A stretch of 37,662 nucleotides of DNA, taken from contig JAGCOF010000023.1 of NCBI GenBank assembly GCA_017645585.1, positions 1 to 37,662 of the forward strand. Direction: 5' to 3'. Position numbers and translations under genes: made by a program. Positions 2,345 through 32,021 of the stretch are shown here, in pieces. The notes under the pieces are model-generated. The model had not been told where the DNA came from and made no database searches. It was given only the letters and a program-made list of their open reading frames with translations. Every line of letters begins with the position of its first letter. Position 1 is the first letter of the stretch. Origin of the DNA: Bacteroidales bacterium (GTDB lineage Bacteria; Bacteroidota; Bacteroidia; Bacteroidales; P3).

Positions 2345-2405
2345 GTCCGACTGCGGTCGGACTTCAGTCGGACTTGAGTCGGACTTGAGTCGGACCAGAG
2401 TCGGA
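2345..2405. repeat. 11-bp-period array, unit CTTGAGTCGGA
   Basis: Five in-phase units occupy 2351-2405: CTGCGGTCGGA, CTTCAGTCGGA, CTTGAGTCGGA (twice) and CCAGAGTCGGA. The last five bases, GTCGGA in most units, are invariant. The left edge forms a 7-bp hairpin, GTCCGAC (2345-2351) with GTCGGAC (2356-2362), around a 4-base loop. Confidence 0.9.
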
Positions 2406-2476
2406 GGGGGTGCGGTGTGTTAGGGGTAGGAAACCGTCGTTTTAACGATTGATATAGTGATTATTAGTGCTTTGGT

Positions 2477-2504
2477 AGCCGGTAATCGGTAGCTGGTAGC
2501 CGGA
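2477..2504. repeat. 7-bp-period array, unit TAGCCGG (left arm of an inverted pair)
   Basis: There are four heptads: TAGCCGG, TAATCGG, TAGCTGG, TAGCCGG. The unit is the exact reverse complement of CCGGCTA found in the array at 2539-2566, 34 bases away. Confidence 0.88.
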
Positions 2505-2538
2505 GAAGTGGCAACTTTGGAGCGTTTTTCGGCCCGTT

Positions 2539-2566
2539 CCGACCACCGGCCACCGGCTACCAACCA
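2539..2566. repeat. 7-bp-period array, unit CCGGCTA (right arm of an inverted pair)
   Basis: There are four heptads: CCGACCA, CCGGCCA, CCGGCTA, CCAACCA. With the array at 2477-2504 it can form a long imperfect hairpin. It is followed after 4 bases by the second copy of the 20-bp palindromic box. Confidence 0.85.
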
Positions 2567-2570
2567 CTAA

Positions 2571-2590
2571 TTTATGTCGTGCACGACCTA
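2571..2590. repeat. 20-bp box with palindrome GTCGTGCACGAC, copy 2
   Basis: This is an exact copy of the box at 2293-2312, in the same orientation and 278 bases further on. Its palindrome is at 2576-2587. The first base lies 5 bases after the preceding heptad array. It sits 109 bases before the start of the surface-protein gene. Confidence 0.85.
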
Positions 2591-2699
2591 ATTTTGGACC
2601 GAAACAAAAATGTTAAATAAAGTTAAAGTTTGGGCAGATTTTGGCACCTTCTCCGTCTATAAGGCACTAAACGGAGCTAATTATAGTTATTGATACTGC

Positions 2700-5600
2700 A
2701 TGTCCGCTGCGACCATACGAAAGACACTCCTCGGCGCCCTGCTGCTTCTGCAGGGCAGTCTCTTCGCGCAGCAGATCAACCTGAGTTACAACCTTGTCAA
2801 TGGCGACACCATCGAAGTGCAGCTCTGCCGGACCGACGATTATGTCAATTTCCATGGGCCTCAGTTTACCCAAACGCCCCACGACGCCTTCGACGGCTGG
2901 GCCCTTGTGCAGGCCAACGGCATCATGGACGCCCTGGTAAACAACGAGATGAGCGCCATCTCCGGGGGTAAATACATCACCGTCAGCGACGGCACGGGAG
3001 TGCTCGACTCTTCCACCAACTCGAGCACCGCCCAGCTCTTCAACATCAGCACCCCCGTGCTGGTACATATCCATGTAGACGCCAACAAGTTGATTCCCGG
3101 CAACTCCACCGTACATGTTATCGTCACGAGCGACTACTGCCGGTCGACGATAGGGAGCATTGCGACCCACAACATGGTGGGCGACTCGGTGTTGTTGACT
3201 TTTTCGTGCACGAACGACAGCGTGCTCGTCAACCCCGACGACGGCCCGCCGACCCCAACGCTGCTGGAACCGTGGACGTCGGGCGACAGTGCGTTTTATG
3301 GAAACATCATGCTGCACGACTTGGATTGCTACCACACAAACACGGTCACCCTCACCACCGTGATTGACAGCGGCAACCACTGTTGCCGTTACAGACACTC
3401 GTTCCGCAACATCACATGCCAACCTGCATATGGTTGCTTTGACGCCACCGCCTTGACCGCCGCCTATACGAACTGCCTGTATGGCTACTGGGAGGGGCCC
3501 GAACACTATGGCATCGTCAACGGCCGTCACACCTTGATGTACGACACCACAGCATACGACGCCACGCTGGGCGGCAACCGGTTGCTCACCGTCTGCCCGG
3601 GATGCGACTACACGATACGGCTGGGCAACAGCGGCAGCGGGTCCCAATGGGAAGCCGTCAACTATGCTGTGACCGTTGACACTATGATTGGCGCCATACT
3701 AATACTGAAATACGCCGCCGTGTTGCAGAACCCAGGCCATCCGGCAGAAATACAACCGCGTTTCTCTTTCGACCTGTTCGACAAAGACATGCAACCGGTG
3801 AGCAATTCCTGCGCCCATGCCGAGTTCATAGCCAGCGACTCGCTGGGATGGGTCAGTATGGGCGATATCGAATGGAAAGATTGGACCACCGTGGGTTTCG
3901 ACCTCTCGGACTATCACGGGCAGACGCTCAACCTGCGCCTCAAGACCAGCGACTGCGGAGCCGGTGGCCACTTCGGCTACGCCTACTACACCACCCGCTG
4001 CGCGCCCCGCACCATCACCGCCTGGCAATGCGGCACCACCGACAGCAACACCTTCACCGCCCCCGAGGGGTTCAACTACCAATGGATCAACTCGGCAAAC
4101 TCCGTCATCAGCACCGACCGCACCATCACGGTGCCCTCCAACGGGGGTGTCTACCGCTGCCGCGTCAGCTCGATTGAGGATCCTTCCTGCAACTTCACGC
4201 TGGGCACCTATGCCGGTGTGCGCCTGCCCAAGGCGGTCGGCAGCGTGGAGCAGATAAGCACCACCGACTGCCACACATATAGCGTCAGCTTCAAGAGCGA
4301 GAGCTACATCACCTCCGACGGCATCCACCCCGTGCCCTACGGCGGAATGTGCGACCAGGTGATTTGGCACTTCGGCGACGGCGACAGCGCCACAGGCTTC
4401 AACCCCACGCACACCTACACCGATACAGGCACCTACGATGTCACCATCATAGCCACCCTCGGCGGTGGCCAATGCACCGACACGGCGCACCTGAGCGTCA
4501 GCATGCCCACCCTCTTTAATTACGACGAGCAGCTGAATGCCTGTGACTCGATGCGCTGGTACGACGGAGAACTCTACACCGCCGACACCGTGATTCCCAC
4601 CCTGCTGGTTGTCAACCCCAATGGCTGTGACACCCTTTTCTCCCTCAACCTGCACATCAACCATTCGAGCTACGGCAACCTGCAGTTCGACACCGTCTGC
4701 CACCGCCAAGTCTATCTGTGGAACGGCAACCCCATTGTGATGCCGTCCGACAGCACACGGCTGACACTCTGCGACACCCTTCTGTCGGTGGCAGGCTGCG
4801 ACTCGAGCGTCATCCTGCACCTCTCAACATGGCCCGACTATGCGGCCGAGCCGGAGCTCGACACCGTCTGCTACGGCCAGAGCTACTCCTGGCGCAGCCT
4901 GACGGTGAACGACACCAGCCAGCCGCAGACGATGCTGTGCATCGCCTTGCGCGACACTATGGCGACCATGCATAGCTGCGACTCGATTGTCGGGCTCGAC
5001 CTCTGCCGCTGGCCCAAAATGGACTTTGGTTTCTCCATCCAGCCCAACTGTAGCGGAAACTACTACACGCTGAGCGTCGGCCATCTATACCACGACTTGC
5101 AGCTGTTCATGTATGAGGGTGAAAACACCCGGAGATCACTTGCTCAGGACGACACGCTGATTATAGCGGTCGACAGCCTGACGGCCTACCGCTTCACCGC
5201 CGGCTACACCGACAGCCTCTTTTGCGCGGCCGACACCACTCTGATACTGCAGCCCATTACCGTCCCCGCTGCCGCCCTCAAGCTGACGCCGCAGCTGCTC
5301 ACCTACGAGAACCTCACCCTGAATGCCTACGACATCACGGAGGGTGAGCACAGTCGCCGGTGGTACATTGTGCACGCCGACGGCGACAGCCTTGCACTGA
5401 TGGATACTGCCGCCCATTTGGTCTACCTCGCCGACGTGAGCGACGACAGCACACGGGTGGTGCTGGCCGTCAGCGACGGAGTGTGTCCCGACACCGCCAG
5501 GGGTTGCATCTACCTGGCGCGCACCGACTTCTTTGCCCCGAATGTGTTCACTCCCGGCCAGGCCGACAACAACCGGTTCGTCATTACAGGCACCGGCATA

Positions 5601-5798
5601 CAGCAACTGAGCCTCAGCATCTTCAACCGACAGGGACTGTTGGTCTTCGCCACCGACCACCCCGAGGAGGGCTGGGACGGCACCCACGATGGCACCCCCT
5701 GTATGCAGGGCGCCTACGTGTGGCACCTCACCTACACCACAGACATTACCCCCGAACGCACACAGACCGCCATAGGCACCATCACACTGTTGCGCTGA
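2700..5798 (+). CDS. Secreted PKD-domain surface protein with T9SS type B sorting domain
   Basis: The 1032-residue protein starts with a signal peptide (residues 1-23, ending LFAQ). The N-terminal half is rich in Cys and Asp/Thr and has no recognised enzyme motif. A PKD domain lies at about 545-600 (VIWHFGDGDSATGF, then THTYTDTGTYDVT). Three degenerate repeats follow at about 605-775, two opening with DTVC and each closing with a CD-rich segment such as GCDSSV. The last 88 residues (from FFAPNVFTPG near 945, through IFNRQGLLVF, EGWDGTHDGTPC and GAYVWHL) form a gliding-motility-type C-terminal domain, the T9SS type B sorting signal. It is probably exported by T9SS to the cell surface as an adhesin-like protein. 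It stands alone between the repeat region and the next promoter. The ligand cannot be inferred. Confidence 0.88.
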   Translation: MSAATIRKTLLGALLLLQGSLFAQQINLSYNLVNGDTIEVQLCRTDDYVNFHGPQFTQTPHDAFDGWALVQANGIMDALVNNEMSAISGGKYITVSDGTGVLDSSTNSSTAQLFNISTPVLVHIHVDANKLIPGNSTVHVIVTSDYCRSTIGSIATHNMVGDSVLLTFSCTNDSVLVNPDDGPPTPTLLEPWTSGDSAFYGNIMLHDLDCYHTNTVTLTTVIDSGNHCCRYRHSFRNITCQPAYGCFDATALTAAYTNCLYGYWEGPEHYGIVNGRHTLMYDTTAYDATLGGNRLLTVCPGCDYTIRLGNSGSGSQWEAVNYAVTVDTMIGAILILKYAAVLQNPGHPAEIQPRFSFDLFDKDMQPVSNSCAHAEFIASDSLGWVSMGDIEWKDWTTVGFDLSDYHGQTLNLRLKTSDCGAGGHFGYAYYTTRCAPRTITAWQCGTTDSNTFTAPEGFNYQWINSANSVISTDRTITVPSNGGVYRCRVSSIEDPSCNFTLGTYAGVRLPKAVGSVEQISTTDCHTYSVSFKSESYITSDGIHPVPYGGMCDQVIWHFGDGDSATGFNPTHTYTDTGTYDVTIIATLGGGQCTDTAHLSVSMPTLFNYDEQLNACDSMRWYDGELYTADTVIPTLLVVNPNGCDTLFSLNLHINHSSYGNLQFDTVCHRQVYLWNGNPIVMPSDSTRLTLCDTLLSVAGCDSSVILHLSTWPDYAAEPELDTVCYGQSYSWRSLTVNDTSQPQTMLCIALRDTMATMHSCDSIVGLDLCRWPKMDFGFSIQPNCSGNYYTLSVGHLYHDLQLFMYEGENTRRSLAQDDTLIIAVDSLTAYRFTAGYTDSLFCAADTTLILQPITVPAAALKLTPQLLTYENLTLNAYDITEGEHSRRWYIVHADGDSLALMDTAAHLVYLADVSDDSTRVVLAVSDGVCPDTARGCIYLARTDFFAPNVFTPGQADNNRFVITGTGIQQLSLSIFNRQGLLVFATDHPEEGWDGTHDGTPCMQGAYVWHLTYTTDITPERTQTAIGTITLLR

Positions 5799-5809
5799 AA
5801 GAAGGTCGA

Positions 5810-5874
5810 TGGGCGGTAGTCTGTGGGCGGAGATATTTTTTCACTTTTTATATTTTACTTTTCACTTTTTTATG
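5810..5874. repeat. 7-bp-period repeats covering the core promoter
   Basis: Two TGGGCGG heptads (5810-5816, 5824-5830) flank TAGTCTG at the same spacing. From 5840 an AT-rich heptad run follows: TTCACTT, TTTATAT, TTTACTT, TTCACTT, TTTTATG (5840-5874). The second run ends exactly at the -7 element of the groES-like/alaS operon, so it occupies the -10 to -40 region. Confidence 0.75.
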
Positions 5875-5883
5875 TATCTTTGC
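5875..5883 (+). promoter_or_regulatory. Bacteroidota-type -7 element for the groES-like/alaS operon
   Basis: TATCTTTGC is a full match to TAnnTTTGY. It lies 24 bases before the ATG at 5907. No canonical TTTG -33 box is present; the corresponding region is a T/C-rich heptad array. Confidence 0.75.
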
Positions 5884-5906
5884 AATTGGAACCCTTTATT
5901 ACTTTC

Positions 5907-6266
5907 ATGGCTAAGAACAACATAGACAAACTGATAGTGATTGGCGACCGTGTGCTGATAGAGCCTGCGGTGGCCACGCACAAGACCAAGGGAGGCCTGC
6001 TGCTGCCCGCCGGTTATCAGGAGAAGGAGGAGATACAGACGGGCTACATCATCAAGGTAGGCCCCGGCTATCCCCTGCCCTCTTCGGACGAAGGCGAAGC
6101 CTGGCAGCCTGCCGACGGCGAGCCGCGCTATCTGCCGCTGCAAGTGCGGCCCGGCGATATGGCCATCTTCATGCTCAAGAACGCCGTGGAGCTGAAATAT
6201 GACGGCGTAAAGTATTTTATTGTTCCCCAAAATGGAATCCTCATGGTGGAACGCGACGAATTCTAA
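5907..6266 (+). CDS. GroES-family co-chaperone-like protein
   Basis: The 119-residue protein begins MAKNNIDKLIVIGDRVLIEP and shows the GroES fold landmarks GDRVLI, GGLLLP, GYIIKVGPG, VRPGD and the late KYFIVPQNGILMV. It carries an extra acidic segment (PLPSSDEGEAWQPADGEPRY) not found in canonical 95-residue GroES. From memory this matches the longer GroES-like paralogue of Bacteroidota. No groEL follows, so it is not the main chaperonin operon, and its partner is unknown. ATG at 5907 is chosen because the -7 element at 5875-5883 would exclude any earlier start. The alaS ATG follows after 6 bases, indicating cotranscription. Confidence 0.85.
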   Translation: MAKNNIDKLIVIGDRVLIEPAVATHKTKGGLLLPAGYQEKEEIQTGYIIKVGPGYPLPSSDEGEAWQPADGEPRYLPLQVRPGDMAIFMLKNAVELKYDGVKYFIVPQNGILMVERDEF

Positions 6267-6272
6267 TTGATT

Positions 6273-8891
6273 ATGACAAGCAACGAAATACGCAAAGCCT
6301 TTTTAGACTACTTTGAAAGCAAACAGCACCATGTGGTGCCCTCGGCCCCCATGGTCATCAAGAACGACCCGACGCTGATGTTCACCAACGCCGGCATGAA
6401 CCAATTCAAGGACATCTTCCTTGGCAACCAGCAGCGCCAGTGGCCCCGCGCCACCGACAGCCAGAAGTGTCTGCGCGTGAGCGGCAAGCACAACGATCTG
6501 GAGGAGGTGGGCCACGACACCTATCACCACACGATGTTCGAGATGCTGGGCAACTGGAGCTTCGGCGACTACTTCAAGAAGGAGGCCATTGCCTACGGTT
6601 GGGAGTTCCTCACCGAGGTGATGAAGATAAACAAGGATTGGCTCTATGTGACTGTCTTTGGCGGCGACGAGAAGGAGGGGCTCGGCATGGATACCGAGGC
6701 CTACGATTTCTGGAAGGAGCACATCAGTGAGGACCGCATCCTGCGCGGCTCGAAGAAGGACAACTTCTGGGAGATGGGCGACCAAGGTCCCTGCGGCCCC
6801 TGCTCGGAGATACACGTCGACATACGTCCCGACGAAGAGAAGGCCAAAGTGCCTGGCAAGGACCTGGTGAACAAAGACAACCCGCAAGTTATCGAAATAT
6901 GGAACCTGGTGTTCATGCAGTTCAACCGCAAGGCCGACGGTAGCCTGGAGCCGCTGGCGGCCAAGCACATCGACACGGGCATGGGCTTCGAGCGCCTCTG
7001 CATGGTGATGCAGGGCAAGCGCTCGAACTACGACACTGACGTGTTCCAGCCCCTCATCCAAGAACTTGCTGCCCGAAGCGGCAAGCGCTATGGCGAGAAC
7101 GAAGAGGCCGATGTGGCCATGCGTGTCTGCGCCGACCACCTGCGCGCCGTCAGCTTCTCCATCGCCGACGGACAGTTGCCCAGCAATGTGAAGGCGGGCT
7201 ACGTCATCCGCCGCATCCTGCGCCGCGCGGTGCGCTACGGCTACACCTTCCTGGGCTTCAACGAACCCTTCATGAACACCCTCGTGCCCACGCTGGTGGG
7301 ACAGATGGGTCACCAATTCCCCGAGCTGCAGAAGCAGCAGGAACTCATCCAGCGCATCATCCTCGAGGAAGAGCAGGCTTTCCTGCGCACCCTCGCAGGT
7401 GGCATCAAGCGCTTCGAGGATTACGCCGCCAAATGCACCGGCAAGGTGGTGGACGGCGCCTTTGCCTTTGAGCTGTTCGATACCTACGGCTTCCCCATCG
7501 ACCTCACGCAGTTGATGGCCTCGGAGAAAGGCCTCAGCGTCGATATGGATGGTTTCAACAAAGGATTGGCCGAGCAGAAAGAGCGCAGCCGCGGTGCCGC
7601 AAAAGTGGAGAGCGACGACTGGGTGGATCTGATGCCTGGCGTGGAGCAGGAGTTTGTGGGCTACGACACCTTGGAAGCCGACGTGAAGATTGCCCGCTAC
7701 CGCCATGTGAAGGCCAAAGACAAGGAGTTCTACCAGCTGGTGTTTGACCACACTCCATTCTATGGCGAAAGCGGCGGCCAGATTGGCGACACGGGAGTTT
7801 TAGAGGTGAAAGGTGAAAGGTTAAAGGTGAATGTGGTGAATACCAAAAAGGAAAACGGTCTTATTGTACACATCGTTGAGGCCGAGGTATTTTCACCTCT
7901 CACCTCTCACCTTTCACCTCTCACCTTCCACGCCAGCGTGGATGCCGACCGCCGTATGGCCATCGGATGCAACCACTCGGCCACCCACTTGATGCACTAC
8001 GCCCTGCGCCAAGTGCTGGGTGAGCATGTGGAGCAAAAGGGCTCGAGCGTCGACGACCAGCGTCTGCGCTTCGACTTCAGTCATTTTGCCAAACTCAGCC
8101 AGGAGGAGATACGCGACGTAGAACGCCGTGTGAACCGCATGATTCGCCAGTGCCTGCCTCTCGAAGAGCACCGCGAGATGCCCATCGCCGAAGCCCAGAA
8201 GCTCGGCGCAATGGCCCTCTTCGGCGAGAAATACGGCGACCGTGTGCGTGTGGTGAAATACGGTCCCAGCGTGGAGTTCTGCGGCGGTACGCATGTGCAG
8301 AACACCGGCATGATTGGTTCCTTCCGCATCGTCAGCGAGGGTGCCGTGGCTGCCGGCATGCGCCGCATCGAGGCCATCACCGCCGAAGCCTGCACCGCCT
8401 ATGCCGACCGGCAGCAGGAGCAGCTGGCCGCGCTGGCCGAGGTGTTCAAGGGCGCCAAGGATCTCGGTGCCGCTATCGCCAAACTGCAGGAAGAGAACAC
8501 CCAGATGAAAGCCGTGGTGGAGCAGATGCAGAAGATGAAGGCCCTTGATGTGGCACGCGGTTACGCTTCGCGCCTGGCCGACACCCCTGTTATCGTGGAA
8601 CGCATTGCCGACGATGTCAATACCCTCAAGGACGCCCTCATCGCCCTGCGCAACGACCATCCCGAGATGGCCATGGTGCTCGGCAGCGTCAAAGACGGCA
8701 AACCGGCCCTGCTCATTGTCCTTGGCCAGCAGCGTGTCGACGGCGGCCTCAACGCCGGTCAGATGGTGCGCACCCTCGGCAAGGAAATCATGGGCGGCGG
8801 CGGCGGACAGCCCCATTTCGCCACTGCCGGCGGCAAGAACCCCAACGGCCTCGACAAGGCCCTCAGCGTCGCCAAAGAGATGCTGGCATAA
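6273..8891 (+). CDS. alaS: Alanine--tRNA ligase
   Basis: The 872-residue protein has normal length. The class II catalytic domain (1 to about 240) shows FTNAGMNQFK, HHTMFEMLGNWSFGDYFK and TGMGFERL. The editing domain has HSATH near residue 567 and CGGTH near 669; a C-terminal coiled coil and a GGGGGQPHFA tail (DHHA1-type) follow. It charges tRNA-Ala and removes mischarged serine. ATG at 6273 is preferred over TTG at 6267. Oddly, two 7-bp-period DNA arrays lie in frame at 7804-7831 and 7893-7927. They encode EVKGERLKV and SPLTSHLSPLTFH in two loops around the conserved TKKENGLIVH strand. The frame and all motifs are intact, so the gene should be functional. Confidence 0.97.
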   Translation: MTSNEIRKAFLDYFESKQHHVVPSAPMVIKNDPTLMFTNAGMNQFKDIFLGNQQRQWPRATDSQKCLRVSGKHNDLEEVGHDTYHHTMFEMLGNWSFGDYFKKEAIAYGWEFLTEVMKINKDWLYVTVFGGDEKEGLGMDTEAYDFWKEHISEDRILRGSKKDNFWEMGDQGPCGPCSEIHVDIRPDEEKAKVPGKDLVNKDNPQVIEIWNLVFMQFNRKADGSLEPLAAKHIDTGMGFERLCMVMQGKRSNYDTDVFQPLIQELAARSGKRYGENEEADVAMRVCADHLRAVSFSIADGQLPSNVKAGYVIRRILRRAVRYGYTFLGFNEPFMNTLVPTLVGQMGHQFPELQKQQELIQRIILEEEQAFLRTLAGGIKRFEDYAAKCTGKVVDGAFAFELFDTYGFPIDLTQLMASEKGLSVDMDGFNKGLAEQKERSRGAAKVESDDWVDLMPGVEQEFVGYDTLEADVKIARYRHVKAKDKEFYQLVFDHTPFYGESGGQIGDTGVLEVKGERLKVNVVNTKKENGLIVHIVEAEVFSPLTSHLSPLTFHASVDADRRMAIGCNHSATHLMHYALRQVLGEHVEQKGSSVDDQRLRFDFSHFAKLSQEEIRDVERRVNRMIRQCLPLEEHREMPIAEAQKLGAMALFGEKYGDRVRVVKYGPSVEFCGGTHVQNTGMIGSFRIVSEGAVAAGMRRIEAITAEACTAYADRQQEQLAALAEVFKGAKDLGAAIAKLQEENTQMKAVVEQMQKMKALDVARGYASRLADTPVIVERIADDVNTLKDALIALRNDHPEMAMVLGSVKDGKPALLIVLGQQRVDGGLNAGQMVRTLGKEIMGGGGGQPHFATAGGKNPNGLDKALSVAKEMLA
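7804..7831 (+). repeat. In-frame 7-bp-period array in alaS, unit AGGTGAA
   Basis: Four heptads: AGGTGAA, AGGTGAA, AGGTTAA, AGGTGAA. The only stop-free reading on this strand is the one used, giving EVKGERLKVN. The unit is the reverse complement of TTCACCT, which is the register of the array at 7893-7927. Confidence 0.9.
7893..7927 (+). repeat. In-frame 7-bp-period array in alaS, unit TCACCTC
   Basis: Five heptads: TCACCTC, TCACCTC, TCACCTT, TCACCTC, TCACCTT. Together with 7804-7831, 61 bases upstream, it can form a long, nearly complementary stem in the alaS mRNA. It encodes the SPLTSHLSPLTFH loop. Confidence 0.9.
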
Positions 8892-8931
8892 ACCACATAA
8901 TCGAGCATATCAAACCATAAATAAAATAGCT

Positions 8932-10497: not shown

Positions 10498-10516
10498 AAC
10501 CCAAAATACAAACATC

Positions 10517-10762
10517 ATGGATTTACAGACCATTACCTCGCTGATGCTTTCCAGCGACTACAAGGACAGAATGAAAGCCGAGTACTATCACCTGCTGAAC
10601 CGCAAGGAGAACCTCGAAGCCGTGCTGAAATTGTGGGACAGCGGCAAGCTGACCTTCACGCCCGACTGTCCGCGCAGCATCTACGACCTGCAGATGCGCG
10701 CCATGAACGACTACCAGGCCATCCTGGAGGCACGCGCCAGGATTGAAGGCGTCGCACTCTAA
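10517..10762 (+). CDS. Small protein resembling the phage crAss001_48-related family
   Basis: This is an 81-residue soluble protein with no signal peptide. It shows YKDRMKAEYYHLLNRKENLE, a mid-part LWDSGKLTFTPDCPRSIYDLQ and a C-terminal AMNDYQAILEARARIEGVAL. From memory these landmarks (Y..L..R...L, G.L.F.P.CP, Y..ILE.RA.IEG) fit a small, mostly helical protein family seen in crAss-like and other Bacteroidota phages, where its function is unknown. No other phage gene is nearby. It sits 19 bases after the LRR gene and 12 bases before the next gene, embedded in a chromosomal operon. It could be a domesticated phage gene. Confidence 0.7.
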   Translation: MDLQTITSLMLSSDYKDRMKAEYYHLLNRKENLEAVLKLWDSGKLTFTPDCPRSIYDLQMRAMNDYQAILEARARIEGVAL

Positions 10763-10774
10763 GCATTATTCCTG

Positions 10775-13524: not shown

Positions 13525-13590
13525 GACTATTGTATGACGGCTGTTTAACTACTGTTTAACTAAAAATGTAGTTAAACAGCCATCGAACAT
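13525..13590. repeat. 11-bp-period array with two mutually exclusive hairpins
   Basis: Downstream of tgt, an 11-bp phase runs through TATGACGGCTG, TTTAACTACTG, TTTAACTAAAA and ATGTAGTTAAA. GGCTGTTTAACTAC (13539-13552) pairs perfectly with 13568-13581. CTGTTTAACTA (13552-13562) can instead pair with 13569-13579. Both need the same right arm. No T-tract follows, so a classic terminator is unlikely. The rest of the 239-base gap holds only the promoter near 13670. Confidence 0.8.
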
Positions 13591-17023: not shown

Positions 17024-17100
17024 GGCTCCTTAGCTCAACTGAATAGAGCATCTGACTACGGATCAGAAGGTTGCAGGTTTGAATCCTGCAGGAGTCACCA
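17024..17100 (+). tRNA. tRNA-Arg (anticodon ACG)
   Basis: The 77 bases fold as a standard cloverleaf. GGCTCCT pairs with AGGAGTC (one G-U), the D stem is GCTC/GAGC, the anticodon stem TCTGA/TCAGA encloses loop CTACGGA with anticodon ACG, and the T stem GCAGG/CCTGC encloses TTTGAAT. The 3' CCA is encoded. A34 would be read as inosine after deamination, so it decodes CGU, CGC and CGA. Confidence 0.96.
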
Positions 17101-17951: not shown

Positions 17952-18004
17952 ATTTCGAAAAGGAGGAAGAAGAGTTCTTTGACACGACTGAGTGATTGAT
18001 TATT

Positions 18005-18081
18005 ACGGGACAGCCTCGGGACATTCTTGGGTCACTCTTGGGATACTCTTGGGATGCCCTTGGGACAACCTCGGGCGACAG
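18005..18081. repeat. 11-bp-period array, unit TTGGGANANYC
   Basis: Seven units follow without a break: ACGGGACAGCC, TCGGGACATTC, TTGGGTCACTC, TTGGGATACTC, TTGGGATGCCC, TTGGGACAACC, TCGGGCGACAG. GGG recurs every 11 bases. It lies in the 304-base region between divergent genes, which otherwise holds only promoters. Confidence 0.92.
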
Positions 18082-21898: not shown

Positions 21899-22686
21899 AA
21901 GACCAATTCGTCATAGCCTGCATTGAGTCGGCCGCCGATGCCGCTGTGGTGCTCCCCTGGGTGCACCACTTCGCCGAGCACCTGAACCACAAAGGAGTGA
22001 TGGCGCTACACGTGGAAAGTGACACGCGGAAAGCAAACAGCGAAAAGAACGACGAGTGGCTGAAAACGCTGGGAGTACCCTATGTGAGCCTGCAAGGCGA
22101 TTGGCGCACCGCCATCGAGGGGCTGCCGACAGCCTTCAACGGGATACTTGCAGTGGTGGCCGTCAACCCCCAGGCGCCGCGCACCTCGCTCAACCACCCC
22201 AAGCGGCTGCTGCACGAATTCAAGAACTGCAAGACAGCCTACCTCTGTGTTAACGAACATTCAACATTCAATATTCAACATTCAACATTAACGATGACCC
22301 ACCGGCGCGAGGGAAAGGAACTGCTGGTGTGGGCCTCCTATCTGGCGCGCTTCCTCGGCAGCAAAATCACGATTGCGCACCCCGACTATCGCGACGAAGG
22401 ACTGCGGCAACGCTGGCAGAACAACATGCGCTTCGTGGACAAGATGTTCACGCCGCTGAATATAGAATACACCTCGGCAACCATCGACGGCAGCACCCGT
22501 GAGGACCTGCGCACCCTCGACCAAGTGAAGCCCGACCTGCTGATTGCCCGCACCACCGACACGCGCGACCGCGACCTGCTGGATCTGCTTCAGCCGTTGC
22601 CAGAACTGCGGCTCCTCACCCACCCTTCGCACACGCCGCTGCTGCTACTCAACCCGCGTGACGACCTCTATATCCTCTGCGACTGA
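21895..22686 (+). CDS. UspA-like (universal stress) protein with heptad-encoded insert
   Basis: The 263-residue protein has two Rossmann-like halves. The first runs from FVIACIESAADAAVVLPWV through GILAVVAVNPQAPRTSLNHP; the second from ELLVWASYLARFLGSKITIAHP through KPDLLIARTTDTRDRDLLDLL and ends with LTHPSHTPLLLLNPRDDLYI, where a UspA G-x-x-G...S segment would be expected. The assignment to universal stress proteins is by overall pattern. Between the halves, CVNEHSTFNIQHSTLTM is encoded by a 7-bp-period array at 22257-22291. The start is fixed by the ATGA overlap with the surface-protein stop, suggesting cotranscription. Confidence 0.6.
   Translation: MKDQFVIACIESAADAAVVLPWVHHFAEHLNHKGVMALHVESDTRKANSEKNDEWLKTLGVPYVSLQGDWRTAIEGLPTAFNGILAVVAVNPQAPRTSLNHPKRLLHEFKNCKTAYLCVNEHSTFNIQHSTLTMTHRREGKELLVWASYLARFLGSKITIAHPDYRDEGLRQRWQNNMRFVDKMFTPLNIEYTSATIDGSTREDLRTLDQVKPDLLIARTTDTRDRDLLDLLQPLPELRLLTHPSHTPLLLLNPRDDLYILCD
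22257..22291 (+). repeat. In-frame 7-bp-period array in the UspA-like gene, unit ACATTCA
   Basis: Five heptads: ACATTCA, ACATTCA, ATATTCA, ACATTCA, ACATTAA. They are read as EHSTFNIQHSTL in the linker between the two halves of the protein. On the other strand the unit contains TGA, so this orientation is permissive for coding. Confidence 0.92.
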
Positions 22687-23528: not shown

Positions 23529-23547
23529 TACACCCTGACTCCCACCC

Positions 23548-23635
23548 TTCGACAACTATTCGACGGCAGTTCTTCAACAGTTCTTCAATTATTTTTTGAA
23601 GAACTGTTGAAGAACTGCCGTCGAACTGTTATTGA
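23548..23635. repeat. 11-bp-period array forming a 30-bp perfect hairpin
   Basis: Eight 11-bp units run through the region, including TTCGACAACTA, TTCGACGGCAG, TTCTTCAACAG, TTCTTCAATTA, ACTGTTGAAGA and ACTGCCGTCGA. The left arm 23559-23588 is perfectly complementary to the right arm 23596-23625 around the 7-base loop TTATTTT. The right arm is not followed by a T-run. It lies between the SPFH gene and the promoter at 23696. Confidence 0.95.
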
Positions 23636-23695
23636 AATGCAGGAGTCATTAAGGAGAAGAAAACAAATTATTTACAACACATTGGAAAAAATGTG

Positions 23696-23704: not shown

Positions 23705-23814
23705 AATTCGTTCCCTTTTGGAACGAGAGAGTAAAACAGCCTGTAATACAAAGTGATACGCGCGCATACGCGTGAGCTTTGCAGTAATTCTTAACAAACA
23801 AAAAACTTCTCATC

Positions 23815-25827: not shown

Positions 25828-26818
25828 CAAAGTTCACACCCTCAACATGATGCAGAGACACACCACCGTGTGTCTCTGCATTGTTGCTACACTGCTCCTT
25901 TTCGCAGGTTGCCAGCGCTCCGAAGAGGTGCATTTCCGCCGCTTCGAGCAGCTGCTGTTCAACACGCCGGCCAACCAGCTGCAGGCCGAACTGCAGAAAC
26001 ACTATGAGGAATACAACACCGAACTCATCACGCTCTACCCCGACGAGCCGGAGTTCATCCAAATGACGCAGGAGTATGTGTCCGACCCCGTGATGCGCGA
26101 CGTCTACCACATCACCGACAGCCTCTACCGCGACCTTTCGGACGTGGAGCGACAGCTGGGGCGCGCTCTTAGCCGCGCCTACAAGCTCTACCCGAAGATG
26201 TATCATGTGAAGCGTTTCTACACCATTGTCACCGGCGACTTCAACTACGATTGGAGGGTATACAGCAACTGTAGCGACCTGTGTGTCTGTCTCGACCAAT
26301 ATTCAATCGGCGCCATGGAGCGCTACCATTACTTCGGTATTCCCAACTACATCGTACGCACCCTCTCCCGTGAATATATCGTTCCCGACTGCATCTATAC
26401 GCTGGCTGGATTGTATATCGAATCCCCCGACGGCGAAAAGACGCTGCTCGACCACGCCATTGCCGACGGCAAGAAACTATACTTCATGGAGAAGGTGTTT
26501 CCGGGCATCGCCGACACACTGCTGCTGCGCTACACCGCCGACCAACTGAGGTGGATGAAGGACAACACCGCCAATGTATGGAGCTGGCTGATACAAAACA
26601 AGATGCTCTACTCCACCGACCAGGGCGCCTACCGCAACCTTCTGGGCGACGCTCCCCACACCAACGCCTTCGGCAACGAATCGGCCCCACGCTCGGTCTG
26701 CTACATCGGCTGGCAGATAGTGCGCGCCTACATGAAGAAAAGCGGCGCCACGATGGAGCAACTGTTTGACGAACCCAACAGTCAGAAGATCCTCACCGAG
26801 TCTGCCTGGAGACCATGA
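25817..26818 (+). CDS. gldB: GldB-like gliding-motility-type lipoprotein
   Basis: The 333-residue lipoprotein has a basic N-terminus, a hydrophobic stretch and the lipobox LFAGC (Cys32 from this start). The body shows RAYKLYPKM, TGDFNYDWRVY, LCVCLDQYSIG, YFGIPNYI, YIVPDC, LLDHAIADGKKLYFMEKVFPG, WLIQNKMLYSTDQ, DAPHTNAFG, CYIGWQIVRAYMKKSG and a terminal ILTESAWRP, the order expected of GldB. GldB is needed for gliding and T9SS-related function in Flavobacterium. ATG at 25817 overlaps the upstream gene, favouring coupled initiation; ATG 25847 and ATG 25850 are alternatives but lie in or beside a strong hairpin. The next gene overlaps by ATGA. Confidence 0.85.
   Translation: MPNSKVHTLNMMQRHTTVCLCIVATLLLFAGCQRSEEVHFRRFEQLLFNTPANQLQAELQKHYEEYNTELITLYPDEPEFIQMTQEYVSDPVMRDVYHITDSLYRDLSDVERQLGRALSRAYKLYPKMYHVKRFYTIVTGDFNYDWRVYSNCSDLCVCLDQYSIGAMERYHYFGIPNYIVRTLSREYIVPDCIYTLAGLYIESPDGEKTLLDHAIADGKKLYFMEKVFPGIADTLLLRYTADQLRWMKDNTANVWSWLIQNKMLYSTDQGAYRNLLGDAPHTNAFGNESAPRSVCYIGWQIVRAYMKKSGATMEQLFDEPNSQKILTESAWRP
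25850..25881 (+). promoter_or_regulatory. 14-bp perfect hairpin at the alternative gldB start codons
   Basis: ATGCAGAGACACAC (25850-25863) and GTGTGTCTCTGCAT (25868-25881) are exact reverse complements around the loop CACC. The left arm begins with the third possible ATG. In mRNA this would hide the start codons at 25847/25850 and slow early elongation from 25817. Confidence 0.8.
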
Positions 26819-28692
26819 GAAAGAAGAACCAACATAATATCTACGCCTACCTTATAATCAAGCTGCTGCTGGCTTTCGGCACCCTGCTGCTGATGCAGGC
26901 CCTGTTCTACCTTTGCAACAGCCACATACTGCGGCCCGAGGGAAGCGAGTGGTACGGCATCCTGCTGGGCAATACCGTCTTCGGCATGGCCACCGTCGCC
27001 ACCTTCCTCCTCCCCTACTTCTTCATGATGCTACTGCCTTTCCGCTTCCGCCAGAAGAAAGGCTACCGCATAGTGGCTGAGGTGCTTTACATTCTGGGCA
27101 TGCTCTCTATCGTCATCCCCCGCGGAGCCAACACCGCCTACTACCAATACACCTACCGGTTGCTGAGCGACGAGATATTCTCCTATCTCGGCATCAGCGG
27201 ACAGATGGGCTCGCTGGCGCCCCACTTCGCCGCCGACTATTGGTATGCCTGGGTATTTCCGTTGATTATCTTCCTGCTGTTCCTCTTCCTCAATAGCCGC
27301 ATCAAGCTCTCTCCCGCCAAACGATCGACAAAGCAACACTTGTTTGGCACTGTTGCCGGCGGCTTGCTGCTGTGGTTCTTGGTCCGTGGAGGGCTCGGCA
27401 AGTTCATCCAGCCCGAAGGCGCCGCCGACTACTGTCAGCCCAAAAACACAGCCCTCGTCAACAACGACGCCTACAACATCCTGCGCACCCTGTTCACGCC
27501 CGAACTCAAAGAGGTGCACTACATGAGCGACGAAGAGGCCGATCAACTGTGCCCCGTGGTATTCACCCCCCTGCCCGTAGCGCCTTGGGAGGAAGCCGAC
27601 AGGCCGTCGCGCAACGTGGTCCTTATCGTCGTGGAAAGCCTTGGGCAGGAATTCATGGGCTGTTACAACACACAACCCGACGCCGACACCCGCACCCCGT
27701 TCCTCGACTCGCTGGCACAATACTGCACCCTCTACGACGGGCGTGCCAACGGCAAGAAAAGCATTGAGGGCATCCTGGCCATCAACACCTCCATCCCCAA
27801 CCTGATGGCGCAACCCTTCACCAACTCCAAATACAGCGACAACGACTTCACCGGCATCCCCGCCGTCTTCAAGCGTCACGGCTACCATACCGCTTTCTAC
27901 CACGGCACCTACAACGGCGTGATGGATTTCGACAAGCTCTGCGCCAAGATTGGTTTCGACGAGTATCTGGGCAAAAACGAGTATGAGGCCGAAGGCCTTG
28001 GTCGGCCCGAGGACTACGATGGCGCCTGGGGCATCCTCGACGAACCTTTCCTGCAATACACCGTACGCCACATAAACAGCTATGGAGACCAACCTTTCTT
28101 CGCCGAGATCTTCACCGTCAGCTCTCACCACCCCTACCCCATTCCCGACGAACACAAAGAGCGTTTCCTTGAGGGCCGCCATCCCATACTGAAATGCGTC
28201 GAATACACCGACCATGCCCTCCGCCGCTTTTTCGAGGAGGCAAAGAAACAACCGTGGTACAGCAACACCCTCTTCATCATCACCGCCGACCACAGCGGCC
28301 ACGGGCTCAGCGACGAATATAACGACTACGACGGTTGGTACCGCATACCGATGATGGTGTTCGACCCGCAGCAACCCACGGGTAGCCGCGACGACCTCAT
28401 CGTCCAACAAATCGACATCTTCCCCTCCCTGGTCGACCGTTTCCGTTTCGGCGACCGCTTTGTCACTTTCGGCAACAGCATCCACCAACTCAGCAAAGTC
28501 GGCAACCAAGTCTACTTCGGCAACGGCTATTACTGCTTGGTCTACAACGACAAGGAGGTGCCTATCCAACACCGCATCGCCGTCATACAGGGCGACTACG
28601 AAGAGGGTGCCCCGCTGGCGCTGAAATACCTCAAAGCCCTCATCCAGCAATACAACGACAGAATAATCAACAACAAACTCATAGCGCAATGA
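26815..28692 (+). CDS. LTA-synthase-type sulfatase-family phosphoglycerol transferase
   Basis: The 625-residue protein has about five N-terminal membrane segments (to about residue 215) and an extracytoplasmic sulfatase/alkaline-phosphatase-fold domain (about 260-560). The metal ligand Glu274 is in VVESLGQEF. The candidate nucleophile is Ser316 in GKKSIEG, in place of the LtaS Thr. A TADHSGHG motif carries Asp492 and His493, with SSHHPYP before it. Relatives move glycerol phosphate or phosphoethanolamine from lipid to an acceptor and release diacylglycerol or a similar lipid. The acceptor in a Gram-negative cell is unknown. ATGA overlaps with gldB upstream and the lipid kinase downstream suggest linked function. 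Confidence 0.88.
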   Translation: MRKKNQHNIYAYLIIKLLLAFGTLLLMQALFYLCNSHILRPEGSEWYGILLGNTVFGMATVATFLLPYFFMMLLPFRFRQKKGYRIVAEVLYILGMLSIVIPRGANTAYYQYTYRLLSDEIFSYLGISGQMGSLAPHFAADYWYAWVFPLIIFLLFLFLNSRIKLSPAKRSTKQHLFGTVAGGLLLWFLVRGGLGKFIQPEGAADYCQPKNTALVNNDAYNILRTLFTPELKEVHYMSDEEADQLCPVVFTPLPVAPWEEADRPSRNVVLIVVESLGQEFMGCYNTQPDADTRTPFLDSLAQYCTLYDGRANGKKSIEGILAINTSIPNLMAQPFTNSKYSDNDFTGIPAVFKRHGYHTAFYHGTYNGVMDFDKLCAKIGFDEYLGKNEYEAEGLGRPEDYDGAWGILDEPFLQYTVRHINSYGDQPFFAEIFTVSSHHPYPIPDEHKERFLEGRHPILKCVEYTDHALRRFFEEAKKQPWYSNTLFIITADHSGHGLSDEYNDYDGWYRIPMMVFDPQQPTGSRDDLIVQQIDIFPSLVDRFRFGDRFVTFGNSIHQLSKVGNQVYFGNGYYCLVYNDKEVPIQHRIAVIQGDYEEGAPLALKYLKALIQQYNDRIINNKLIAQ

Positions 28693-29630
28693 AAACCAAA
28701 ACACTCATAATAGTCAACCCCATCTCGGGTGTCGGGCGCCAGAAGCGCATCGAGACCCTCCTGGAACAGAACCTCAACAAAGACCTGTTCGACTATAGTG
28801 TCCGCTACACTGAATACATCCACCACGGCACCGAGCTGGCCCGCGACGCCGCAGAACACGGATATGAATGTGTCGTTGCCGTCGGCGGCGACGGGTCGGT
28901 CAACGATGTTGTCAACGGCATCAAGGACACCGACGTGCGACTCGGCATCATCCCTTGCGGCTCAGGCAACGGATTGGCCCGTTCGCTCAAGATACCCCTC
29001 CAGCCCTGGCTGGCCATCCGCGTACTCAACCAGCAGTATGAGCAGGTCATCGACTCCATCGTCATCAACGACACCCACGTCTGCGTCAACGCCGCCGGCT
29101 GCGGATACGACGCCTACATCGCCCGCCTGATGCAGGCCGCCAAAACACGCGGCCTCGCTGCCTACACCAACCTTATCCTGCGCGAATACGAGCGCTACAA
29201 ATGCTCCGACTACCACCTCGTCATCAACGGACGCGATTACTACCGCAGTGCTTGGTTCATCGCGGTGGCCAACAGCCAGCAGTTCGGCTACAACCTCGCT
29301 GTGGCGCCAAAGGCCAAACTTGACGACGGCCTCATCGACATCTCCATCATCGACAAGGTGCCCCTCGACCATGTGCCCATCACTGCCCCTCTGGCCTTCA
29401 CCAACCACCTCGACCTCTCGCAGCATGTCGAGATGTTCCGCACCAAAGAAGTGCTCATCGAGGGCAACGCCGACCGCTGGGTGAACATCGACGGCGAAGG
29501 TATCAACGTAGGCACCACCGTCCATTTCGTCAACCACCCCAAGTCCGTCAAAATCTACGCCCGCGACATGGCCCAGCTGCTCATCGTGCGCACCCCCGTC
29601 GGCGACCCCATCACACTCCCCAGAATATGA
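28689..29630 (+). CDS. Diacylglycerol-kinase-family lipid kinase
   Basis: The 313-residue protein shows the DAGK catalytic fold: LIIVNPISGVGRQKRIETLL at the N-terminus, VVAVGGDGSVNDVVNG with Gly66-Asp68, LGIIPCGSGNGLARSLKIP, then the C-terminal beta-sandwich with VCVNAAGCGYDAYI, FNKLxxDG-like KLDDGLIDISIID and the late WVNIDGEG. It would phosphorylate diacylglycerol or sphingosine-type lipids at the cytoplasmic membrane face; Bacteroidota make sphingolipids, so both are possible. Following the phosphoglycerol transferase with a 4-base overlap, recycling of the diacylglycerol it releases is a plausible role. Confidence 0.92.
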   Translation: MKTKTLIIVNPISGVGRQKRIETLLEQNLNKDLFDYSVRYTEYIHHGTELARDAAEHGYECVVAVGGDGSVNDVVNGIKDTDVRLGIIPCGSGNGLARSLKIPLQPWLAIRVLNQQYEQVIDSIVINDTHVCVNAAGCGYDAYIARLMQAAKTRGLAAYTNLILREYERYKCSDYHLVINGRDYYRSAWFIAVANSQQFGYNLAVAPKAKLDDGLIDISIIDKVPLDHVPITAPLAFTNHLDLSQHVEMFRTKEVLIEGNADRWVNIDGEGINVGTTVHFVNHPKSVKIYARDMAQLLIVRTPVGDPITLPRI

Positions 29631-29953
29631 GCAAGAGACAACCCGTCGGCGTGGTCTACAGCACCAACCCCGACTATCAGTACCAATACGACGAGGAGCC
29701 GGAAGCCGAGACCCTCGCGCCCGAGAAGCAACGCCTGCGTGTCAGCATCGACCGGCACCACCGTGGCGGCAAGACGGTGACGCTGATTACAGGCTTTGTT
29801 GGCACAGAGGATGATTTGCAGGCCCTGGGCAAGATGCTGAAGGGCAAATGCGGCGTTGGCGGCTCGGCCAAAGACGGCGAAATCATCATCCAGGGCGACC
29901 AACAGGAGAAGGTGCGTGCCGCCCTCACCGCCGCCGGCTACAAACTCCGCTGA
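29627..29953 (+). CDS. SUI1/YciH-family translation initiation factor
   Basis: The 108-residue protein has a short acidic leader (TNPDYQYQYDEEPEAE) followed by the SUI1 domain (about 35-108): LRVSIDRHHRGGKTVTLITGF, DDLQALGKMLKGKCGVGGSA and DGEIIIQGDQQEKV. Eukaryotic eIF1 uses this fold to check start codons; the bacterial homologue YciH is thought to bind the small ribosomal subunit. Its ATG overlaps the lipid kinase stop by 4 bases. The functional reason for its place in this lipid/envelope operon is not clear. Confidence 0.92.
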   Translation: MSKRQPVGVVYSTNPDYQYQYDEEPEAETLAPEKQRLRVSIDRHHRGGKTVTLITGFVGTEDDLQALGKMLKGKCGVGGSAKDGEIIIQGDQQEKVRAALTAAGYKLR

Positions 29954-29966
29954 CCATCCACCCGTC

Positions 29967-31271
29967 ATGATACGCCGAGGCATAGGACTATTGCTGTTGC
30001 TGCTCACCATCGCCGGCACGGCGTCGGCACAGGAGGTGCTGGTGCTGAAAGGGCGCGTGATGGACGGCCACAACGGCGTGCCCTACGCCACGTTGCAGCT
30101 GGGCAACAGCATGATTGGCGTCTGCTGCAACGACCAGGGAGACTACGAACTGAAGGTACCCGCCGAACATCTGGGCGACAGCATCCTGGTGCGGTCGGTG
30201 GGCTACACGCCTGCCCGTTTCAGCGTGAGCGACCTGCAGCGCCGCAACCGCATCAAGCTCAAGGCACAGGCGGTGGAGCTCCGCGAGGTGAATGTCTCCA
30301 CCTACCGCAGTGCCCTGCACCTGATGATGGACGTCATCCTCAGCCTCGACTACAACTACCATCAGGACATTGCCTACTCTACCTTCTTCTACCGCGATTG
30401 GCGCGCCGTGGACAACGAGATATACCTCTTCGACGAGGCCGTCATGGAGGTGGAGCGCGCTCCCTATTCCCAATATGCCGAGAAGAGTAGCTACCTGTTC
30501 AACCCCTTGATACGCGAGATGGAGACCAACTACAAGACCCTCCTTCGCCACCGCCTGCTGGTGAACGACCGCCGGCTACTCAAGGAGAAGGTAGGAAAGG
30601 CGTTGGGTGTGGACGAGATGATGGAATATGCCGACGACAAGCTCTTCTACGACCCTGCGGCGGCACCCAACGCCAGCTTCAGCCTATCGAAAAGCTGGCT
30701 CATCCGCCAGAGTTTCAAGCCCCTCATGGAGTTCACCGACGGCGGCGAAGGCTATTACCTTGTCCGCTCCACAGGCTCCAGCAGCATCTCGCGCGAGACG
30801 AACTACGAATATGTGGTACGCAAACGCGGCCTGGCGCTGGTGCGTATCACCTCGTGGATCGACAAGCCCGTCAAAAAGAAAGCCCCCGAGGAAGCCTGGG
30901 TGAAGCCCTACTTCACGAAACTCATCATTGAGGCCGACTCCACCACATGGATCTACGACGAGCGCGACGGCAAGCTCACCCTCGCACGCTACTACTCCAC
31001 CTCGACCACCCGCCTGATTTCCAAAGGACGCGGCCACGACAACGAGGAGCAGTGCTGGCGGCAGAGCGTGGATTGGACGCTCACCCACTTCTCCTCCGTG
31101 CCCACCGTCACGGAGGGCGAGGCTGTCGACAGCCACCCGCGCACCCTCGACAGCGCCTTCGGACAGAGCGACTTCACCCCCGCGTTCTGGGGCAACTACA
31201 ACACCATCCCCATCGACTCGCTGCCGCTGCACCTGCTGGAAATGAAAGTATTGAAATACAAAAAGCAATGA
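29967..31271 (+). CDS. Secreted protein with carboxypeptidase-regulatory-like domain
   Basis: The 434-residue protein has a signal peptide (1-22, ending ASAQ). Residues 25-110 form a CarboxypepD_reg-like beta-sandwich (LVLKGRVMDGHNGVPYATLQL, GDYELKVPAEHLGDSILVRSVGY). The rest (HLMMDVILSLDYNYHQDIAYSTFFYRD and onward) has the pattern of uncharacterised Bacteroidota proteins with such an N-terminal domain. No barrel or enzyme motif is obvious. ATG at 29967 is chosen because the signal peptide begins there; the in-frame extension overlaps SUI1. It is probably periplasmic or surface-exposed. The next gene overlaps by ATGA. Confidence 0.75.
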   Translation: MIRRGIGLLLLLLTIAGTASAQEVLVLKGRVMDGHNGVPYATLQLGNSMIGVCCNDQGDYELKVPAEHLGDSILVRSVGYTPARFSVSDLQRRNRIKLKAQAVELREVNVSTYRSALHLMMDVILSLDYNYHQDIAYSTFFYRDWRAVDNEIYLFDEAVMEVERAPYSQYAEKSSYLFNPLIREMETNYKTLLRHRLLVNDRRLLKEKVGKALGVDEMMEYADDKLFYDPAAAPNASFSLSKSWLIRQSFKPLMEFTDGGEGYYLVRSTGSSSISRETNYEYVVRKRGLALVRITSWIDKPVKKKAPEEAWVKPYFTKLIIEADSTTWIYDERDGKLTLARYYSTSTTRLISKGRGHDNEEQCWRQSVDWTLTHFSSVPTVTEGEAVDSHPRTLDSAFGQSDFTPAFWGNYNTIPIDSLPLHLLEMKVLKYKKQ

Positions 31272-31870
31272 AGACTCACCGCCTGCTCATGGTCCTGCTG
31301 CTGGCCGTCACCGTCGCCGCCCAGGCCCAGACGGACACCATCGCCATCACCGGCACGGTGTACAACCAGCACACCCGACTGCCCGAGCCCTACTGTCTGG
31401 TACAACTGCTGCAGGACAGCGTGGCACGGGCCGTCCGCGTGTGCGACAGGGAGGGGTTCTTCTTCATCGACAGCCTGCCGGCAGGCACCTATACCCTCAA
31501 TGTCGGCGTGGGGCGCATGACACTCTTCCAGAACGACTTCGAGCTACTCGAACCGGCCAACCTCAGCATCTATGTGGACACCGTGCAGCTCATCAGGCTC
31601 ATCCCCGTCGACATCAATAGTCGGCGCAAAGTACCCCGACACCCCGGCACGTTGCTCATCACCTCGACCAGCGACCAGCGCCTGTGGAACCTCGGCGGCC
31701 GCATGTCAGAGTCAGGCTCCGCCAGCGCAGACCTCTCCGGCGGGCCAAAAAAGCAGTCCATGCTCAGCGGCACCGTGCCTATCTGGTACTACGAATTCTG
31801 GAGCACCTGGCCCACACGCAAGCGCAAGTCCACAACCACCCCACCCTCCGACACAAGCGCAACAAGATAG
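31268..31870 (+). CDS. Small secreted protein with carboxypeptidase-regulatory-like domain
   Basis: The 200-residue protein has a signal peptide (1-20, ending AAQAQ) and one regulatory-like beta-sandwich (about 25-115: IAITGTVYNQHTRLPEPYCLVQLLQDSVARA, GTYTLNVGVG). A basic, low-complexity tail rich in Ser, Thr, Pro and Arg follows (KSTTTPPSDTSATR). The domain is like the one in the upstream gene, so the pair may have arisen by duplication of the domain. It closes the operon that began at 23815. The stop is followed 19 bases later by an 11-bp-period array. Function unknown. Confidence 0.7.
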   Translation: MKTHRLLMVLLLAVTVAAQAQTDTIAITGTVYNQHTRLPEPYCLVQLLQDSVARAVRVCDREGFFFIDSLPAGTYTLNVGVGRMTLFQNDFELLEPANLSIYVDTVQLIRLIPVDINSRRKVPRHPGTLLITSTSDQRLWNLGGRMSESGSASADLSGGPKKQSMLSGTVPIWYYEFWSTWPTRKRKSTTTPPSDTSATR

Positions 31871-31889
31871 GCTGTCACCCCCTGTCATG

Positions 31890-32021
31890 GACCTACCAAG
31901 GACTTCCCATCGACTACCCAAGGACTTCCCATCGACTACCACAGTGGTGGTTGGATAGTGGTAAATAAGTGTTAAAGTTTAGTTAAAAAAAGTGTTAAAC
32001 ACGTTTTAACACTTATTTTAT
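31890..32021. repeat. Long 11-bp-period array with drifting units and nested hairpins
   Basis: Twelve consecutive 11-base blocks keep phase. GACCTACCAAG, GACTTCCCATC, GACTACCCAAG, GACTTCCCATC and GACTACCACAG (31890-31944) pass into TGGTGGTTGGA, TAGTGGTAAAT, AAGTGTTAAAG, TTTAGTTAAAA, AAAGTGTTAAA. AAATAAGTGTTAAA (31963-31976) pairs perfectly with 32005-32018, and a second copy of AGTGTTAAA (31991-31999) competes for the same arm. It lies in the 223-base gap before the DUF6266-like gene. Confidence 0.85.

Follow-up and report, generated by a model that had tools for sequence, protein, structure and literature searches.

We analyzed a 37,662-nucleotide stretch of DNA from a Bacteroidales bacterium (contig JAGCOF010000023.1, positions 1 to 37,662; contig C24 in our numbering, hereafter the window), which comes from a genome of 1.93 Mb in 62 contigs that is 83% complete. 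Between its genes lie five short sequences built on an 11-bp period. An original prediction, made from the sequence alone, held that their units are unrelated and locus specific and that a shared period without a shared sequence points to a common generating or binding mechanism rather than to the spread of one element. We found that the five belong to dispersed families with copies at other places in the genome and that an excess of the 11-bp period characterizes this genome and its genus.

The five arrays and their dispersed families

Tandem Repeats Finder (TRF) and a lag scan detected period-11 sequence at all five of the places that had been named, each of which is intergenic. Whereas the sequences at 2345-2405 and 18006-18065 are good direct arrays, as had been proposed, those at 13541-13579 (two direct copies and one inverted) and 23567-23617 (two copies and two inverted) are hairpin-like dyads instead of simple arrays. 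The fifth consists of two perfect 22-bp units, that is, four 11-mers, at 31896-31940; it had been thought to keep its period out to 32021, but no 11-bp period extends beyond 31940, and ~31963-32019 is an inverted repeat. This AT-rich repeat (AAGTGTTAAA ... TTTTAACACTT) is terminator-like and lies between array 5 and a DUF6266 gene. A search of the window against Rfam gave no match above the gathering score at any array, the sole match being a tRNA gene. The features are collected in the table.

Table. Repeat elements and related features of the window. L numbers denote sampled loci or stretches and G numbers, used in the text, denote genomes.
Feature	Position	Strand	Description
Period-7 array AACTTCT	592..623	.	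between two genes
Period-7 array CTGACAA	2262..2291	.	directly adjoins family A element
Palindrome ATTTATRTCGTGCACGAY	2292-2312, 2570-2591		also at L009 3482, 3870; L014 77, 17236, 17513; L018 1624; L028 10668, 10946
Family A element (array 1)	2292..2433	+	palindrome GTCGTGCACGAC, ACACCG-type units, dyad, then GTCGGA units in 11-bp steps
Period-7 arrays	2474-2503, 2539-2561		
Two inverted period-7 arrays	7804-7831, 7893-7926	.	inside alanyl-tRNA synthetase open reading frame
Family F dyad (array 2)	13541..13579	.	CTGTTTAACTA twice, 6-base spacer, TAGTTAAACAG; BLAST matches elsewhere
tRNA gene	17024-17097		Rfam RF00005
Family G array (array 3)	17971..18065	+	CTTGGGATACT-type units; 78% match to L028 5627-5721
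Period-7 array AACATTC	22256..22289	.	inside open reading frame
Family B element (array 4)	23537..23647	.	111-bp dyad, five 11-bp units per arm, ends TGACTCC/GGAGTCA
Family C array (array 5)	31878..31951	.	CCAAGGACTTC/CCATCGACTAC units beside degenerate CTACCAC-GTGGTGG dyad; found by TRF

To place these arrays in their genome, we sampled the window and 20 further stretches, 320,077 bases in all. The units are not locus specific, since each of the five recurs outside its own locus. The 40 period-11 arrays of the sample fell into eight clusters by unit, with 100 close pairs compared with a mean of 4 for shuffled units. When the sample was compared with itself by BLAST, four of the five window arrays lay within dispersed matches of 74-142 bases (the family C array in one of depth 3), and the fifth, at 13541-13579, had similar places elsewhere in the genome, so that elements must to some extent have spread. 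The family A element, whose dyad is GTCCGAC-TGCG-GTCGGAC at 2345-2362, matches L014 17228-17369 over 142 bases at 86% identity with equal lengths. Of the original contrast between a common mechanism and the spread of one element, a lineage-specific common cause of the 11-bp step is supported, but unrelated, locus-specific units are not, those of this genome belonging to about eight dispersed families.

Searches with single words gave a similar impression of dispersal. A family B 20-mer had 81 matches at up to two mismatches, which by our count make up 34 loci (reversed control, 0). The GTCCGAC dyad core of family A occurred, again by our count, at 45 places (19 exact and 26 with one mismatch) and, at up to two mismatches, at 72 (reversed control, 1 per strand). 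The family C dyad core CTACCACSGTGGTAG was found at 11 places elsewhere at up to one mismatch (control, 1 per strand), and the family C cluster comprises six arrays, including that of the window; family F was found with a 7-base spacer at five loci besides the window copy, and similar unit pairs of family G were found at six loci including the window (control, 0 for each). Dyads are also present in the copies shown of families E, F, and H, and an inverted partner lies within 120 bases of 17 of the 40 arrays of this genome and of 29 of the 73 arrays found in the genus (control, 0 and 0). A single ancestral unit for all families was rejected, only B, F, and H coming close to one another (at 3 mismatches, with P about 0.06 for each), as was a universal TCCGA terminal unit, which was weak in the flanks of this genome and unclear in those of the genus.

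Excess of the 11-bp period and its distribution

A scan of the 320,077 bases for arrays of periods 4-40 scoring 14 or more returned 40 with period 11 and 35 with period 7; period 8 followed with 5. Three Markov-shuffled versions of the same DNA gave no array at any of these periods, which rules out chance as their source. TRF, filtered at a score of 40 or more and 2.5 copies or more, gave 30 arrays of period 11, 31 of period 7, and at most 5 of each other period. Perfect 11-bp tandem duplications numbered 28 in intergenic DNA and 0 in 285 kb of genes, compared with 4 and 0 at 10 bases and 1 and 3 at 12 bases; 26 of the 28 are within three mismatches of the known unit families. The genes do contain perfect duplications of period 8 (7) and period 9 (11).

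The same signal was found across the genus. Two sets of relatives were sampled, the first consisting of ten congeners at 40 kb each and the second of 41 loci (770,352 bases) retrieved with one protein of this genome, in one of which (L164) the protein is only 36% identical to the query. The retrieved relatives are mostly labeled as rumen and gut Bacteroidales, one being labeled Candidatus Colimorpha. The ten congeners yielded 26 period-11 arrays, with at least one in every species, and the 41 loci yielded 47 in 24 loci; up to three arrays may be counted twice between the sets because L130 overlaps L107 and L108. Perfect 11-bp duplications in the genus numbered 59 in intergenic DNA and 2 in 1.01 Mb of genes. 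In 736,635 bases from 22 genomes of other Bacteroidales families (391,682 bases from 11 genomes and 344,953 bases in 20 stretches; the latter came from 17 genomes, of which six had already been sampled), we found no period-11 array. Perfect 11-bp duplications in other families numbered 0 in intergenic DNA and 0 in genes. The lag-11 excess that the original prediction would lead one to look for is therefore present in the sampled genome and genus and absent from the sampled stretches of other families, and the general slippage at 11 bases that would have undermined it is not seen in genes.

Between species, a shared period without a shared sequence does hold, since the units turn over while the period stays. 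Some weak similarity remains: 29 of 69 arrays of the relatives were within three mismatches of the families of this genome, where 14.5 were expected from shuffled units.

Architecture and genomic context of the elements

The two best families, B and A, are fixed-plan dyads of ~111 and ~125 bp, with five 11-bp units on either side of a short spacer, and in both the 11-bp phase continues past the visible tandem copies through units of altered sequence. We aligned 33 copies of family B (66 arms), having dropped one more that is cut by a contig end. The spacer, which lies at 23589-23595 in the window, is 7 bases long in 33 of 33 copies, although 5-9 were allowed, and 5-7 of its bases are A or T. 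Outward from it come TTGAAGAACTG twice (nearly invariant), NTGnnGAANNN, TTGnnGAANNG (n being variable), and then NCGGAGTCA. G occupies unit position 3 in 95 and 93% of units 3 and 4, respectively, and in 98% of unit 5, and A occupies position 7 in 92 and 100% of units 3 and 4, but the commonest base at positions 4-5 of these two units reaches just 37-50%. Of 44 arms, 29 have the sequence GGAGTCA (5/7 or better) exactly where the element ends, 4 have it elsewhere, and 11 lack it; conservation fades beyond about position 55. The median pairwise distance between copies is 25% overall, 39% in the outer units, and 5% in the inner units, with only 2 of 528 pairs below 10%, and judged by these sequences the copies look old and star-like. 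An earlier pass over 22 distinct family B cores gave the same picture.

If the arms were kept mainly for pairing, those of one copy should match each other better than those of different copies. Over units 3-5 together, complementarity was 19.45 of 33 within copies and 19.13 between copies, the within-copy value being reached in 448 of 2,000 shuffles. Beyond the inner stem, then, what is kept is mainly the phased motif and not pairing. Among the first 20 positions, all seven variant cells at variable positions other than stem position 15 are one-sided.

For family A, we aligned 16 of the 72 places, chosen by a near-exact core. The consensus advances in 11-bp steps through ATTTATGTC, GTGCACGACNT, ATCCGTANCNA, CACCGTAGATA, CACCGTGTTTT, and GTCCGACTGCG, continues with five GTCGGAC/G-type units, and ends in GGGGGTGCG. 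Its CGG core has an information content of ~1.9 bits, both at the dyad and in each of the five units to the right; CCG recurs in phase on the left side more weakly than the right-hand CGG, and conservation drops beyond about +66. Two copies, L010 and L013, deviate. One plan is therefore shared by the 33 aligned copies of family B and, by eye, by 14 of the 16 of family A, with outer units that have diverged, which is not the pattern of variable number tandem repeats. The palindrome ATTTATRTCGTGCACGAY is recurrent in intergenic DNA; family A elements have it at their left end, and in places it stands beside period-7 arrays. Separately, positions 1-141 of L023 and L028 are identical, inverted contig ends and are probably one repeat split by assembly.

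Gene context was assigned with a simple custom gene caller. Of the 40 arrays of this genome, 2 were genic, 19 were in divergent gaps, 15 were in co-directional gaps, 1 was in a convergent gap, and 3 could not be resolved, in a sample where divergent gaps make up 34% and convergent gaps 5% of the gap length. The corresponding numbers in the two genus sets were 1 of 26 and 0 of 47 genic, 8 and 14 divergent, 9 and 18 co-directional, 6 and 7 convergent, and 2 and 8 unresolved. Family A copies were divergent in 10 cases, co-directional in 3, convergent in 1, and at contig edges in 2; family B copies were co-directional in 8 and divergent in 6, with 1 at an edge and 18 without enough flank. As a promoter marker we used TAnnTTTG, a Bacteroidetes-like promoter motif. 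Of 41 divergent arrays, 17 had this motif for both promoters, and 15 of the 17 lie between the two; among co-directional arrays with the motif, 26 of 28 lie upstream of it (22.7 expected). Model matches, some from cut genes and below the cutoff, gave names to 10 of 20 listed neighbors of family B: dnaK, murF, glnS, prfA, dnaA, dihydrolipoyl dehydrogenase, D-Ala-D-Ala ligase, purE, phosphofructokinase, and phoH.

The flanks share a further feature. The word RACACC, which was picked after inspection of these same flanks, points at the array on 14 of 66 sides in this genome (1.2 expected) and, with family A left out, on 7 of 50 (0.9 expected), with 2 in the opposite orientation. In the genus it does so on 17 of 126 sides (4.1 expected), with 1 in the opposite orientation; one of the 17 is a repeat count, L107 and L130 being one locus. 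Around period-7 arrays it was not significant (3 of 68 sides, 1.2 expected; 7 of 138, 4.5 expected).

The period-7 arrays, which the original prediction overlooked in the window, are nearly as frequent in this genome as those of period 11. They are often genic (23 of 35 in this genome; 5 of 23 and 10 of 56 in the genus sets, where most of the others are in co-directional gaps), whereas period-11 arrays rarely are (2 of 40 and 1 of 73). We therefore rejected a single process for both periods and treat them as separate, since their genic shares differ and RACACC flanks are significantly enriched only at the 11-bp arrays. Period-7 arrays also occur in other families (G060 and G052). G060 has period-10 arrays as well (L119 10240-10562 and L120 136-178), so another lineage may prefer a different step.

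Proposed binding sites, rival explanations, and known systems

The interpretation to which we lean, with about even confidence, is that each array is one copy of an intergenic element dispersed in the genome, and that these elements form a genus-specific class of putative multivalent DNA-binding sites. For the 11-bp step we favor binding over generation on the evidence of the alignments: copies keep the phased motif positions and lose the rest, which suggests constraint at each site and hence protein-DNA recognition once per turn. The elements would act as double-stranded DNA, and a putative protein would contact one motif per helical turn, with neighboring molecules adding on from the central dyad toward the ends. 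The plan common to the families would be motifs every 11 bp, which in families A and B take the form of five units on each side of the spacer, pointing toward it. Proteins of the PhoB/OmpR or ParR type assemble head to tail on 11-bp repeats. We propose that different families may serve paralogous or drifting binding proteins, which would allow the sequence to change while the step stays. A bolder version, which we offer only tentatively, is that evolution conserves the geometry alone (half-sites spaced one to each 11-bp turn, with five in either arm of a dyad) while the recognized sequence is replaced species by species, yielding genus-specific nucleoprotein sites, of which the larger families have dozens of copies, perhaps through co-evolving binding proteins that organize the chromosome or mark gene boundaries.

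Several observations weigh against a role as binding sites. None of the six congeners that keep both neighbors of array 4 (G010, G012, G029, L129, L131, and L133, where the gap is 3 kb) has a period-7 or period-11 array in the orthologous gap, and neither of two congeners has one in the gap of array 2, which is odd for a conserved local regulator; where the upstream neighbor is different, an 11-bp array does precede the same gene in some congeners (by eye; L134, L149, and L150 are examples). A regulon was rejected because the family B neighbors are mixed housekeeping families, indicating no single pathway. The 15 arrays found between divergent promoters are close to the 12.1 expected from random placement. 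The ratio of gaps to substitutions equals that of other intergenic repeats (58:1605 and 15:415), so these repeats show no visibly tighter conservation of phase than of length as a whole, and indel depletion had to be discarded as proof of phase constraint. Since the family A copies were chosen by their core, its conservation is a matter of ascertainment, and the outer units alone are free of that choice. In family B, units 1-2 covary (6 of 2,000 shuffles), and unit 3 taken singly gives a borderline result (69 of 2,000). Stem position 15, which contributes to the covariation of units 1-2, varies in 3 copies and in each of them differs on both arms, as in a hairpin, and gene conversion could be the source of the uniformity of the inner units. 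In families C and D the number of units is variable, and some of the runs are long and nearly perfect. Finally, no binding protein has been identified, no candidate having been sought.

The elements might alternatively be nonautonomous mobile elements resembling miniature inverted-repeat transposable elements (MITEs) or REPINs, in which a transposase would recognize the dyad and ends, the 11-bp units would be subterminal binding sites, and the host would gain nothing. We regard this as a possibility of the second rank. The elements are indeed dispersed, multicopy, and intergenic, array 4 is absent from the orthologous gaps, and RACACC is enriched toward arrays across families and species, but that word was chosen post hoc from the same flanks, 33 family B copies gave no signal of a target-site duplication over 248 offset-size combinations, and the copies look old and star-like and yet are conserved at the motif positions. 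The observations that bear on terminal inverted repeats are the GGAGTCA ends of family B and the RACACC flanks. REPINs are driven by the RAYT transposase; we rejected RAYT as a common driver, having found no Y1 transposase (PF01797, Y1_Tnp) match in the 83% complete genome, in a search confined to that transposase family, and none in the array-bearing congeners G016, G017, and G029. Polymerase slippage with preferred 7- and 11-base steps appears improbable. It would suit the presence of two preferred periods in one genome and the long, nearly perfect arrays at L022 5970-6053 and L025 1055-1158, and slippage at 7 has been proposed in print for heptamers. Against it, units recur between loci and 11-bp duplications are almost lacking from genes in which periods 8 and 9 occur, which together make general slippage at 11 unlikely, and the unit number is fixed in families A and B.

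We consider it equally improbable that the elements work at the RNA level, whether in hairpin terminators, attenuators, or small RNAs, in which case 11 bp would correspond to one turn of an A-form helix. Inverted partners are common, many folded arrays are strongly structured (a comparison that lacks a shuffled control), the paired changes at stem position 15 are those of a hairpin, and the genus sets place 6 and 7 arrays in convergent gaps. However, 19 of the 40 arrays of this genome are in divergent gaps and only 1 is in a convergent gap, which is not where rho-independent terminators are located, and 10 of the 14 placed family A copies are likewise divergent. With 15 of 17 testable arrays between outward promoter motifs, an RNA function is unlikely there and terminators are disfavored. 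Nor is there covariation over units 3-5 of family B taken together or an Rfam match at the arrays.

Dispersed repeats in bacteria are, as a rule, recognized by shared sequence; here it is the spacing that is conserved, and elements of this sort would escape cross-species searches that rely on repeat sequence. If they are protein sites, they would represent a many-copy chromosomal system in a gut-bacterial group and a natural test of the co-drift of site and protein. A literature search, whose coverage was without most subscription journals, turned up no paper that we recognized as describing 11-bp-phased dispersed elements, and the closest known systems are of four kinds. Porphyromonas gingivalis belongs to the same order as this genome. 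Its BrickBuilt MITE is dispersed and always intergenic, with 19 copies in one strain, and forms one family of tandem 23-nucleotide units in variable number (1 to 22.8), with a leader and a tail that have small inverted-repeat ends (PMC4596501). Our elements resemble it in being dispersed, intergenic, and built of tandem units in which some positions are conserved and others vary; they differ from it in their 11-bp units, their several families, the fixed-plan dyads of families A and B, and the lack of a detected target-site duplication. They are like REPINs (PMC3116915) in being miniature dispersed bacterial repeats, but unlike them in having no Y1_Tnp match in this genome. The period-7 arrays are of the general kind of the heptamer repeats such as TAACTGA and GGGAATC (PMC4679880, PMC4692102). 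Period 11 with its dyads is a separate matter. PhoB/OmpR boxes and the ParR-parC iterons consist of half-sites arranged as 11-bp direct repeats. That layout, with conserved and variable positions, is present in families A and B. The elements described here differ from both systems in having dozens of chromosomal copies, arms of five units inverted about a spacer, and several sequence families.

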